Shown here piece by piece: positions 27,177-30,689 of a DNA stretch of 36,620 nucleotides. Location: contig CAIYYW010000329.1 in assembly GCA_903930515.1 (NCBI GenBank), forward strand, positions 1 through 36,620, given 5' to 3'. How positions within the stretch are numbered: position 1 is the stretch's first letter; every line of letters starts with the position of its first letter. The DNA is from an uncultured delta proteobacterium (GTDB taxonomy: Bacteria; RBG-13-61-14; DRUE01). Below the pieces are notes generated by a model, which made no database searches, had not been told where the DNA came from, and worked only from the letters and a program-made list of their open reading frames with translations. The translations under genes and the position numbers were made by a program.

Positions 27177-27204
27177 TTGATCGGCGAAAGAAAATTGCTA
27201 TAAT
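27177..27204 (+). promoter_or_regulatory. extended -10 promoter for TGS GTPase, leaderless type
   Basis: TTGATC (27177-27182) and a perfect TATAAT (27199-27204), with the extended TGC element before it, are 16 bases apart. The -10 ends seven bases before the ATG at 27212 and no ribosome site exists, so transcription should begin at the start codon. Confidence 0.65.
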
Positions 27205-27211
27205 TCTTATT

Positions 27212-28207
27212 ATGCCGGCAAACCTGACCCCCGATTATATGGAAGCGGAGCGGCTGTATAAACAGGCGCGCACGGACCAGGAGCGGATGGCGGCCCTGGA
27301 GCAGATGCTGTCCACTGTGCCCAAGCATAAGGGCACGGAAAAGATTCAATCCGACATCAAGCACCGGATGGCCAAACTGCGGGAGCTTTCCGAGGAGAAG
27401 TCGGGAAAGGGGGGCGGGAAGCGCGGGGTAAACCTTTTTGTGCCGCGAGAGGGGGCGGGCCAGGTGATCTTGATCGGCCCCCCCAATTCCGGTAAAAGCT
27501 CCATCCTGGGCTTTTTCACCAAGGCCCAGGTGGAGATCGCGGATTACCCTTACACCACCCGCCAGCTCCAGCCCGGGATGATGCCGTTCGGGAATGTCCA
27601 GATCCAGTTGGTGGACACCCCGGCGTTGAGTCCGGAAATGTTCGAGCCTTGGATGACCTCGGCGATCCGGTCGTCCGATTACCTCATCTTGGTGGTTGAC
27701 CTGATGAGTCCGGGGATTCTGGACGATCTGGAGTTCATCAAAAATACCCTGCGCCAGCATAGGATAGAACTTAACCGGAGCGCGCCGGAGAAGTTTGACG
27801 ACGAGGGGAACGCCCGGATCAAGGCGGTCATACTCGGGACGCATCTGGACCTGGAGGGCGCCAAAGACAACCTTGAGGCGCTCCGGGACATTTACGGCAA
27901 GGACCTGGACATTTTGGCCTTGTCGTTCAAGACCGGGGAGGGCGCGGATAAATTTGCCGGGGAAATTTTCCAGCGCCTGGAAGTGGTCCGGATTTACACC
28001 AAGAGTCCGGGCAAGCCCGCGGATCGGAGCGACCCGGTGGTTTTGCGGAAGGGGAGCACGGTGGACGACTTTGCCCGGGGCATCCACAAGGATTTGGAGC
28101 AAAATTTGAAATATGCCCGGATCTGGGGTAAGAATAAGTTTGAAGGACAGCGAGTGCCGCGCGATTATGTGTTTGAAGATGAAGATATCTGCGAGCTGCA
28201 TGGTTGA
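27212..28207 (+). CDS. DRG/OBG-like GTPase with C-terminal TGS domain
   Basis: A 331-residue GTPase related to the DRG branch of OBG proteins. A helical N-terminus (residues 1-75) is followed by the G domain: G1 GPPNSGKSS at 89-97, G2-type Thr in YPYTT, G3 DTPA at 135-138, G4 THLD at 210-213 and G5 around SFKTG at 238-242. A TGS domain occupies about residues 257-331. G3 is usually DxPG and G4 usually NKxD, so both are altered; base specificity may be relaxed. DRG proteins act on ribosomes and are mostly archaeal and eukaryotic. The next gene, for an FHA protein, starts ten bases downstream, so the GTPase leads a signalling operon. Confidence 0.85.
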   Translation: MPANLTPDYMEAERLYKQARTDQERMAALEQMLSTVPKHKGTEKIQSDIKHRMAKLRELSEEKSGKGGGKRGVNLFVPREGAGQVILIGPPNSGKSSILGFFTKAQVEIADYPYTTRQLQPGMMPFGNVQIQLVDTPALSPEMFEPWMTSAIRSSDYLILVVDLMSPGILDDLEFIKNTLRQHRIELNRSAPEKFDDEGNARIKAVILGTHLDLEGAKDNLEALRDIYGKDLDILALSFKTGEGADKFAGEIFQRLEVVRIYTKSPGKPADRSDPVVLRKGSTVDDFARGIHKDLEQNLKYARIWGKNKFEGQRVPRDYVFEDEDICELHG

Positions 28208-28217
28208 GGAGTAAACG

Positions 28218-28637
28218 ATGAGCGAGATGGTGATAAATTTTCCCGCACTGCTTTTTTCGCTGGTCACCGACGACCAGGGCGTGACCACTTTGGGAGACGA
28301 GGCCAAGGTTCATAAGATTCCGGACGATCTGGTGGTTCTGCTCCGGGTGCTGGAAGGGGCGGAAGCCGGCAAGGGCTACCAGATTCACGAGACCCCGGTC
28401 ACAATCGGCCGGGACAAGATTTGCGCGATCTCGGTCAAGGATTCCCGGATGAGCCGGCAGCACGGGGCGATCCTGTATTTCGCGCCCGACTTTTTCATCA
28501 AGGACCTCGCGTCCTCCAACGGCACCTTGCTGGACGGCAAGCCGGTGAAGCAGGCCAAGCTCAAGAACGGGGACAAGATCAAGATGGGGCAAACGGTTTT
28601 TGAATTCATCGTGAGCAATCTCTCGGAGGCGAAATAA
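28218..28637 (+). CDS. FHA-domain phosphopeptide-binding protein
   Basis: A 139-residue protein with a short N-terminal segment (1-40) and one FHA domain (about 42-135). The phosphothreonine-reading residues are present: GRDK, SRQHGAI and SSNGTLLDG. FHA domains bind phosphothreonine on partner proteins and often report on Ser/Thr kinase signalling. The stop codon overlaps the ATG of the PP2C gene by one base (TAATG), and GAGGAG precedes its own ATG. The reader and eraser are therefore co-expressed; no Ser/Thr kinase gene is in this window. Confidence 0.92.
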   Translation: MSEMVINFPALLFSLVTDDQGVTTLGDEAKVHKIPDDLVVLLRVLEGAEAGKGYQIHETPVTIGRDKICAISVKDSRMSRQHGAILYFAPDFFIKDLASSNGTLLDGKPVKQAKLKNGDKIKMGQTVFEFIVSNLSEAK

Positions 28638-29407
28638 TGCGCGAGCTTTCTTTGATCAGCTCCGGCGAGACCAATCAGGGGCGGCTCCGGGAGGTGAACC
28701 AGGATTTTTTCCTGGTCAACCGACAGCTTAATCTGTTCGCGGTGGCGGACGGGATTGAAACCGCGCCTTACGGCGAGCTGGCGAGCAGGATGGCCGCGGA
28801 GAAGCTGGAGGGCCTGCTCAAGGATTTTGACCTGTCCCTGGACGCCACTCCCCCGAGCGATGATCATCCCGCGGTGCCGCTCCCGGTCCGGGCGCTCAAA
28901 TACGCATTCCGCGAGGTGAACCGCCAGATTTATAATTTTTCGCGCGAGACCCCGAAATACCAGGGGATGGGCACCACCCTGACCGCGCTCTGGATTTATC
29001 AGGGCCGCGCCTATTTCGGACATCTCGGGGACAGCCGCGGTTATTTGATCCGACAGAAAGTGGCGCAACAACTCACCCATGATCATACTTCCATCTCCGA
29101 TTCTCCCTCGAAATTAAGCGAGGATATGGAATTTTACGAGGGCAGCCAGCGCACCTCCGAACACGAGCTGACCCAGGCGCTCGGGATCAATCCGGATATT
29201 CAGGTGCAACTGGCCGGGGGGTCGCCCAAATCCGGGGACCATTTCCTGCTCTGCACCGACGGCCTCTACGGCCAGGTCCAGACCTGGGAGATGGTGGATA
29301 TGGTGAACCAGAACCTCCCCCATCTGGCCTGCCGGAAACTGATCCAGCTTGCAAATCAGAAGGGAGGCAAGGATAATGTCGCGGTGGTGGTCGTGCAGGT
29401 GGAATGA
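28637..29407 (+). CDS. PP2C-family protein phosphatase
   Basis: A 256-residue phosphatase of the PP2C/PrpC/Stp type, which removes phosphate from Ser/Thr on proteins. Metal-binding Asp residues are kept in VNQDFF, VADG, CTDGLYG and GGKDNVAVVVV. HLGDSRGYLIR and the GMGTTLTAL strand are also typical. Two signature spots are unusual: the common NED is NQD, and the DGMGGH motif is replaced by DGIETAPYG. The metal ligands remain, so activity is likely, but loop geometry may differ. It overlaps the FHA gene by one base and has GGAGG before the ATG. Confidence 0.9.
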   Translation: MRELSLISSGETNQGRLREVNQDFFLVNRQLNLFAVADGIETAPYGELASRMAAEKLEGLLKDFDLSLDATPPSDDHPAVPLPVRALKYAFREVNRQIYNFSRETPKYQGMGTTLTALWIYQGRAYFGHLGDSRGYLIRQKVAQQLTHDHTSISDSPSKLSEDMEFYEGSQRTSEHELTQALGINPDIQVQLAGGSPKSGDHFLLCTDGLYGQVQTWEMVDMVNQNLPHLACRKLIQLANQKGGKDNVAVVVVQVE

Positions 29408-29460
29408 GGGCAAGGGTCTGAGGTCAGGGGAAAATTAACCACGGAAAAAAGGAGAGAGCA

Positions 29461-29919
29461 ATGGAAAATTTGGAGCTGATCAGAAACATCCGGATTTTTA
29501 TGGAACTGGAAGACCCGGAGTTGGAAAGGTTTTTACAGATCGCGGAGGAGAAGAAATTCGCCAAAGGCGCGGTGATTATTGAAGAGAACACGGAAGGGAA
29601 AGCCCTGTTCATTATCAAGAACGGCACGGTGGAAGTGACCAAGGTGGACGGGGCGCTGGAGAGCGAGTTGGGCAAGCTGTTCGCGGGGGAGCATTTTGGG
29701 GAGATGAGCCTGGTGGAGGACGCGAAAACCAGCGCGCGGGTCAAGGCCTATAATGAAGTGGTGTGCCTGGTGATTCCGCGGAGTGAGTTCCAGAAATTGA
29801 TTGAGAGCGATTACAAGGTTGCGGCCCGGGTTTACAAGGCCTTCACCCAGACCTTGTGCGACCGGCTCCGTCAGACCTCCCAGGACCTGGTGGCCTGGAA
29901 GCCGGAATTTCAGACCTGA
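29461..29919 (+). CDS. stand-alone cyclic-nucleotide-binding-domain protein
   Basis: A 152-residue protein that is essentially one cNMP-binding domain (residues about 5-125) with a C-terminal helix. The phosphate-binding cassette is GEHFGEMSLVEDAKTSARV. The usual Arg before Thr/Ser-Ala is Lys here (AKTSA), which may lower affinity for cAMP/cGMP or change the ligand. There is no DNA-binding domain, so it is not a CRP regulator; it may act by protein contacts. A strong AAAGGAGAG site precedes the ATG, 53 bases after the PP2C gene, so it probably belongs to the same transcript. It ends convergently with the FHA/receiver gene, 14 bases apart. Confidence 0.88.
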   Translation: MENLELIRNIRIFMELEDPELERFLQIAEEKKFAKGAVIIEENTEGKALFIIKNGTVEVTKVDGALESELGKLFAGEHFGEMSLVEDAKTSARVKAYNEVVCLVIPRSEFQKLIESDYKVAARVYKAFTQTLCDRLRQTSQDLVAWKPEFQT

Positions 29920-29933
29920 CCGGAGCGCTCCCG

Positions 29934-30689
29934 CTAGTGGATCGGGGATCGCTTCAGGTTATTGATCAGCAGCTTGACCTGCTCGCCAAAATCCATCCGG
30001 TCCTGCCGCCTGGGATAGTAAAGGCTCGGCGCGCAGAAGGTGAGCACCTTGCGGAACGCCTCGGTATCGGGCGGATCAAAGAAGAACACGATCGGGATCA
30101 GACCCGGTCTCTGATAGGCCCGCTCGTATGCCCTGATTGAAATCGCGGCATTGATCCCGTTGATGATCGGCATTTTCAAATCCAGGATCAACAAACCCGG
30201 GTCCCGGTTCTGTTCAAACCACTCAAGGGTCCGAACCATCAGTTCCTCGCCGTTGGGAAAAGCATGGCTCTCCTCCGCCAGCATTGACTGTTTGGCCTCC
30301 GCCGCCAGCATTTCCCGCTCCTGATTCTCGTAACCGGCTATGAACAGATTGGGATAGAGCGGAGAAGTGAGAGGCAATGACGCGGTGGTCGGCTCTAGCC
30401 GGACCGTCAATTCGCTCCGTCCCACCTGGATTTGGTCTCCGTTTTTCAAGGTGATGCGCTCATCAATCGGGGCTTGATTGACAAAGGTGCCGTTCTTGCT
30501 CATCAAGTCTTCCAGCTCCACCGACTCGCCGCCGGCAATGATCTGGCAATGCTTGACGCTCACGGAGCTGTCATTGAGGACCACCTCCGCTTTCCGGCTC
30601 CGGCCGATCAGGATGTTGTCCTGAGTGAACTGGTACTCCTCTCCTCGCTGGCTGCCGCCGGTGATCATAATAAAAACTTTCCATCCCAT
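29934..30689 (-). CDS. FHA domain fused to a degenerate receiver-like domain
   Basis: A 251-residue protein. Residues 1-100 are an FHA domain with LIGRSRKAEV, VSVKHCQI and KNGTFVNQ; SxKH replaces the usual SRxH. Residues about 120-251 look like a response-regulator receiver: the central LLILDLKMPIINGINAA has the phosphoacceptor-like Asp. However, the first strand reads LFIAGYENQ instead of the acidic VDDE. The usual Thr/Ser strand is VFFFDPP and the conserved Lys is not evident. It is therefore probably a pseudo-receiver. The gene is convergent with the GTPase-FHA-PP2C-cNMP operon and has its own promoter just after dapF. Confidence 0.82.
   Translation of the reverse strand: MGWKVFIMITGGSQRGEEYQFTQDNILIGRSRKAEVVLNDSSVSVKHCQIIAGGESVELEDLMSKNGTFVNQAPIDERITLKNGDQIQVGRSELTVRLEPTTASLPLTSPLYPNLFIAGYENQEREMLAAEAKQSMLAEESHAFPNGEELMVRTLEWFEQNRDPGLLILDLKMPIINGINAAISIRAYERAYQRPGLIPIVFFFDPPDTEAFRKVLTFCAPSLYYPRRQDRMDFGEQVKLLINNLKRSPIH

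Follow-up and report, generated by a model that had tools for sequence, protein, structure and literature searches.

The actinobacterial fhaB-pstP locus places an FHA gene beside a PP2C gene, together with rodA, pbpA, pknA and pknB. In Bacillus, the ribosome-assembly GTPase CpgA shares a transcript with prpC-prkC and is a substrate of PrkC, which modifies it at Thr166 (PMC6449344), and in humans the GTPase DRG1 is phosphorylated by STK16, a phosphomimetic form showing lowered GTPase activity (PMC8629797). DRGs have been stated to be absent from bacteria (PMC8629797, PMC4263083). Here we analyzed a stretch of 36,620 nucleotides from an uncultured delta proteobacterium (GCA_903930515.1, contig CAIYYW010000329.1; hereafter the window), in which the gene for a DRG-like GTPase is followed by genes for an FHA protein (FHA1), a predicted phosphothreonine reader, and a PP2C phosphatase, the predicted eraser. 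As in prpC-prkC-cpgA (PMC6449344), a ribosome-type GTPase and a PP2C share an operon, a likeness of arrangement only, but the GTPase is DRG-like rather than RsgA/CpgA, and FHA replaces the linked kinase: the window's operon contains no Hanks kinase and so departs from the Bacillus layout, the kinase being unlinked. As in fhaB-pstP, an FHA gene is paired with a PP2C gene, and FhaB is the best NCBIfam match of FHA1 (below cut-off), but rodA, pbpA, pknA and pknB are missing and a GTPase gene stands in their place. We found no literature on an FHA-PP2C-GTPase operon.

The candidate phylum is sampled by three genomes only, namely the window's genome (G000), a sister species (G001) and a third genome from another family (G002); contigs are given as C-numbers. 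All five open reading frames of the locus were confirmed within the window, with domains called by Pfam and NCBIfam:

27212-28207, + strand: DRG-like GTPase gene (331 aa; Pfam TGS and MMR_HSR1)
28218-28637, + strand: FHA1 gene (139 aa; Pfam FHA, single domain)
28637-29407, + strand: PP2C gene (256 aa; Pfam PP2C_2/PP2C)
29461-29919, + strand: cyclic nucleotide (cNMP)-binding gene (152 aa; Pfam cNMP_binding, stand-alone domain)
29934-30689, - strand: FHA2 gene, encoding an FHA/pseudo-receiver protein (251 aa; Pfam FHA and a sub-threshold Response_reg match)

These are real genes, since orthologues with 65-79% identity lie in the same order in the second species, G001, which carries all five in the order and orientation of the window. 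An earlier note, made from the sequence alone, had named the same five gene identities, which the domain matches and orthologues bear out, and its 10-base gap between the GTPase and FHA1 genes and 1-base overlap between FHA1 and PP2C (TAATG) are exact. The PP2C and cNMP genes are 53 bases apart, and the cNMP and FHA2 genes converge across 14 bases.

Each of the three genomes has the GTPase, FHA and PP2C genes contiguous, co-directional and in unchanged order. Between G002 and the window, the GTPases share 50% identity, the FHA proteins 49% and the phosphatases 59%, and the synteny around the core is lost: in G002 it is flanked by a methyltransferase gene and groES-groEL, unrelated to the window's neighbors, and no further gene is common in order to the 17-kb G002 stretch and the window. 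The G002 orthologue of the cNMP-domain protein (61% identity) is encoded on a separate contig, adjoining a receiver gene, and that of FHA2 (35%) on yet another; because these orthologues lie elsewhere in G002, their linkage in the window is genus-level. A scan of genome contigs gave a match in the sister species only. Thus, what is conserved is an operon of three genes (27212-29407; GTPase, FHA1 and PP2C), for which we infer co-transcription, and the cNMP and FHA2 genes are genus-level neighbors outside the conserved core. The earlier note had treated all five genes as one signaling island and proposed gene-neighborhood analysis as one check; that analysis upholds the link between GTPase, reader and eraser and dissolves the single island, which we rejected as a unit.

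In both sequence and fold, DRG/Rbg proteins are nearer to the GTPase than Obg, YchF, HflX and Nog1 are. The landmarks of the GTPase are:

27230-27400, + strand: domain of N-terminal helices (residues 7-63), which carries the family motif P-K-H-K-G-T and aligns to the DRG helix-turn-helix region
27476-27502, + strand: G1 P-loop, GPPNSGKSS
27614-27625, + strand: G3 motif, D-T-P-A (residues 135-138)
27986-28198, + strand: C-terminal TGS domain (residues 259-329; Pfam TGS, E 3.4e-16)

A profile built from 14 homologues and run with hmmsearch against solved GTPases matched Rbg2 at 2e-49 and Rbg1 at 6e-46 (range for the two, to 4e-45), the next family following at 9e-22, and the alignment covers the N-terminal helices, the G domain and TGS. 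Residues 24 onward of the N-terminal region align with the DRG N-terminus. The AlphaFold model (pLDDT 86) places helices at residues 7-18, 22-35 and 43-63, and its best Foldseek match is Rbg1 (4a9a, E 7e-20), although whole-chain superposition on Rbg1 is loose (TM about 0.6, root-mean-square deviation 13). The protein thus shares the N-terminal helical domain, Obg-type G domain and C-terminal TGS of DRG1, DRG2, Rbg1 and Rbg2 of eukaryotes and archaea, but it is bacterial, the Gly of its G3 motif is replaced, and it lacks the S5D2L insert between G3 and G4 (no PF16897 match; Rbg2 residues 184-233 unmatched), for which reason we call it DRG-like and not DRG. Yeast Rbg1 without S5D2L still functions at 30 °C (PMC3510508). 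Almost every bacterial DRG-like member examined has Ala or Pro in place of the DxxG Gly of G3, and within the phylum G4 is degenerate, reading THLD (THLE in G001) instead of NKxD. The protein is probably ribosome-associated, and homology to Rbg1 and Rbg2 points to a link with translation. The stretch aligned with the STK16-type Thr after G2 reads R-Q-L-Q in the window's GTPase, leaving no equivalent site; T149, S154 and T210, considered as phylum-specific phospho-sites, stand out weakly (2/3 phylum sequences compared), and none is claimed.

FHA1 retains its phosphothreonine pocket (GR, SRQH and NGT), and its N-terminal tail carries a motif kept in 3/3 orthologues:

28269-28304, + strand: FHA1 tail motif DDQxxT[TS]LGxxA

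Self-binding through a phosphorylated tail is known for GarA, OdhI and the FHA domain of DgcB (PMC6733907), and by analogy with GarA and OdhI this motif might, speculatively, be a phospho-switch site. FHA1 resembles the OdhI/GarA-PknG pair (PMC8546545) in its small size, in the conserved Thr-bearing tail at its N-terminus and in occurring in a genome that encodes TPR-Hanks kinases. It differs in that the tail, which does not read ETTSVF, fits only in part, and in that the TPR region here is N-terminal to the kinase domain, whereas that of PknG is C-terminal. Its NCBIfam matches include OdhI besides FhaB, all below cut-off (OdhI, 42 bits vs 200). PP2C has the metal-binding Asp motifs (NQD, VADG, CTDG and GKDN), has lost the GMGGH loop in favor of DGIETAPYGE, and scores 181 bits against NF033484, under the cut-off of 230. 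Because a separate canonical PP2C adjoins a kinase at C146 of the same genome, the window's enzyme is an additional, second phosphatase outside the housekeeping role.

Members of the DRG-like family are encoded by 78 of 386 sampled genomes (75 of 383 outside the phylum), all from the window's own domain, and protein databases may already annotate bacterial members. Partner genes were sought within about 4 kb of 77 GTPase loci, 11 of which had <1 kb on one side. Outside the phylum a cNMP gene is present at none of 75 loci and a kinase at three, two of the three from one other phylum; a kinase in G263, 2.5 kb from the GTPase gene and on the other strand, was taken as chance. In that other phylum, five genomes of two families (L163, L178, L181, L183 and L185) have the gene for a TPR-Hanks kinase, 776 aa long in G078 and G220, divergently next to the GTPase gene. 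Several of these five also have a PilZ-domain gene after the GTPase, and G220 has an FHA-DUF4388 gene on the far side of the kinase.

The absence of a kinase remarked on in the earlier note is true of the island but not of the genome, where the unlinked kinase it had suggested looking for has seven counterparts (Hanks-kinase hits). Two of these, the TPR-kinases at C66 and C11, are full-length homologues of the GTPase-adjacent TPR-Hanks kinase (∼30% identity over >650 residues) and are for that reason the best candidates to serve the module. As a separate observation, each genome of the phylum has a second cluster of Hanks kinase, tandem-FHA protein and MeaB/ArgK-type GTPase (62, 43 and 51% identity to G002, respectively), which suggests that FHA proteins have been paired with GTPases more than once here:

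L084:7507-10492 (G000:C317), L191 (G001:C75) and L192 (G002:C73): Hanks kinase-tandem FHA-MeaB cluster

The conserved operon suggests, without showing, that the GTPase is switched by protein phosphorylation. An unlinked Hanks-type kinase, with those at C66 and C11 the leading candidates, would phosphorylate a Thr on the GTPase, on the FHA1 tail or on both; the FHA domain would bind phosphothreonine either of the GTPase or within FHA1 itself, as GarA and OdhI do; binding would alter the nucleotide cycle or ribosome binding of the GTPase; and PP2C would reset the phosphorylated state. We give even odds to this reading of the module as a phospho-regulated DRG-like GTPase with an FHA reader and a PP2C eraser. 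In its favor count the gene order kept in 3/3 genomes, the tight spacing with its 1-base overlap, the Rbg matches of profile and model, the intact FHA pocket and PP2C metal motifs, the separate kinase-PP2C pair at C146, the TPR-Hanks kinase beside the GTPase in another phylum, and the precedents of CpgA and human DRG1. Several points weigh against it. Three genomes are few. Around the 75 outside loci a PP2C gene is found at none and an FHA gene at one, so the GTPase ordinarily does without them, and a general linkage of the family to FHA and PP2C was rejected on these counts and that for the kinase. Lack of conservation beyond this genome, which the earlier note had named as one refuting outcome, therefore applies to FHA and PP2C outside the phylum, though not to the core within it. 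Kinase adjacency, seen in one phylum among ∼60 families, is by a rough count not far above chance, and we take it as support rather than proof. The FHA1 tail matches GarA and OdhI only in T, T/S and then L, with no hydrophobic residue at +3/-3. With the G3 Gly replaced and G4 other than NKxD, nucleotide specificity and hydrolysis are in question, GTP binding and hydrolysis being predictions. Finally, FHA1 and PP2C could serve other clients.

That last point can be extended into an explanation of its own, in which FHA1 and PP2C form a self-contained GarA/OdhI-like switch for another client and the GTPase is merely co-transcribed. The small, stand-alone build of FHA1 with its short conserved Thr-bearing tail, its sub-cut-off FhaB and OdhI matches, and the GTPase going without FHA or PP2C in 74 of 75 other genomes are all compatible with such a switch, but the GTPase gene stays first in the operon across two families while other neighbors change, and in another phylum this GTPase has a linked kinase; we regard this explanation as rather doubtful. 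It is still less probable that a housekeeping GTPase and generic signaling genes came together by chance and were retained through short time or operon economy: the small number of genomes and the confinement of the PP2C-GTPase neighborhood to this phylum would fit, but the three-gene order persists despite 50% GTPase identity and the loss of other synteny. Least probable, in our judgment, is the five-gene island of the earlier note, which would feed both a cyclic nucleotide and Ser/Thr phosphorylation into translation control. The two species of the genus both keep the five genes side by side, and each of the three genomes encodes class III cyclases, the window's genome having four, together with about a dozen cNMP domains across the genome; against this stand the dispersal of the cNMP and FHA2 orthologues in G002, the opposite strand of FHA2, and an altered phosphate-binding cassette:

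29695-29742, + strand: cassette FGEMSLVEDAKTSARV of the cNMP-binding protein, with Arg replaced by Thr90

The alteration, reported in the earlier note, is real: Thr stands for Arg in 3/3 orthologues, while most paralogues keep Arg-Ser-Ala. Because of this change, conventional cAMP or cGMP input to the protein is unlikely, and second-messenger control, which the earlier note had joined to the module, was disfavored. A cluster on one contig that combines a class III cyclase with several cNMP domains (L085:3585-9894, G000:C333) is a better candidate for cNMP signaling than the window.

The pseudo-receiver of FHA2, likewise proposed earlier, agrees with the alignment and with an AlphaFold model whose strands and helices follow one another in CheY-like order, although the best 50 Foldseek matches of the model are all FHA:

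29949-30359, - strand: receiver-like domain of FHA2 (residues 111-247), with Asp170 kept and the acidic pair and Lys lost

Of the CheY receiver signature, FHA2 thus keeps the acceptor Asp170 alone. Its C-terminal domain is related to a family of zinc-ribbon-like proteins with receivers, some of them degenerate, which has several copies in the phylum (L075, L076, L078, L079, L080 and L081).

Ahead of the operon lies a promoter-like sequence:

27177-27204, + strand: sigma70-like promoter TTGATC-16-TATAAT with extended -10 (10/12 consensus matches; a consensus match only)

TATAAT ends 7 bases before the GTPase ATG in the window and 6 bases before it in G001; within 27177-27212 there is no room for a Shine-Dalgarno sequence between the two, and the transcript may be leaderless in the window's genus. 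No such promoter was seen upstream of the G002 GTPase, which has a Shine-Dalgarno-like GGAG instead.

Although bacteria are reported to lack DRGs, about one-fifth of the sampled bacterial genomes outside the phylum encode a member of a DRG-like family. We put forward, tentatively and as somewhat less probable than not, that at least two phyla couple these widespread GTPases to reversible Ser/Thr phosphorylation, one through an FHA-PP2C operon and the other through a TPR-Hanks kinase. If so, bacteria too would have phospho-control of a translation GTPase of the DRG type, as is known for human DRG1 with STK16, and an operon joining the GTPase to a phosphothreonine reader and eraser would offer a small, testable system for the roles of DRG-type proteins on ribosomes and for their phospho-control.

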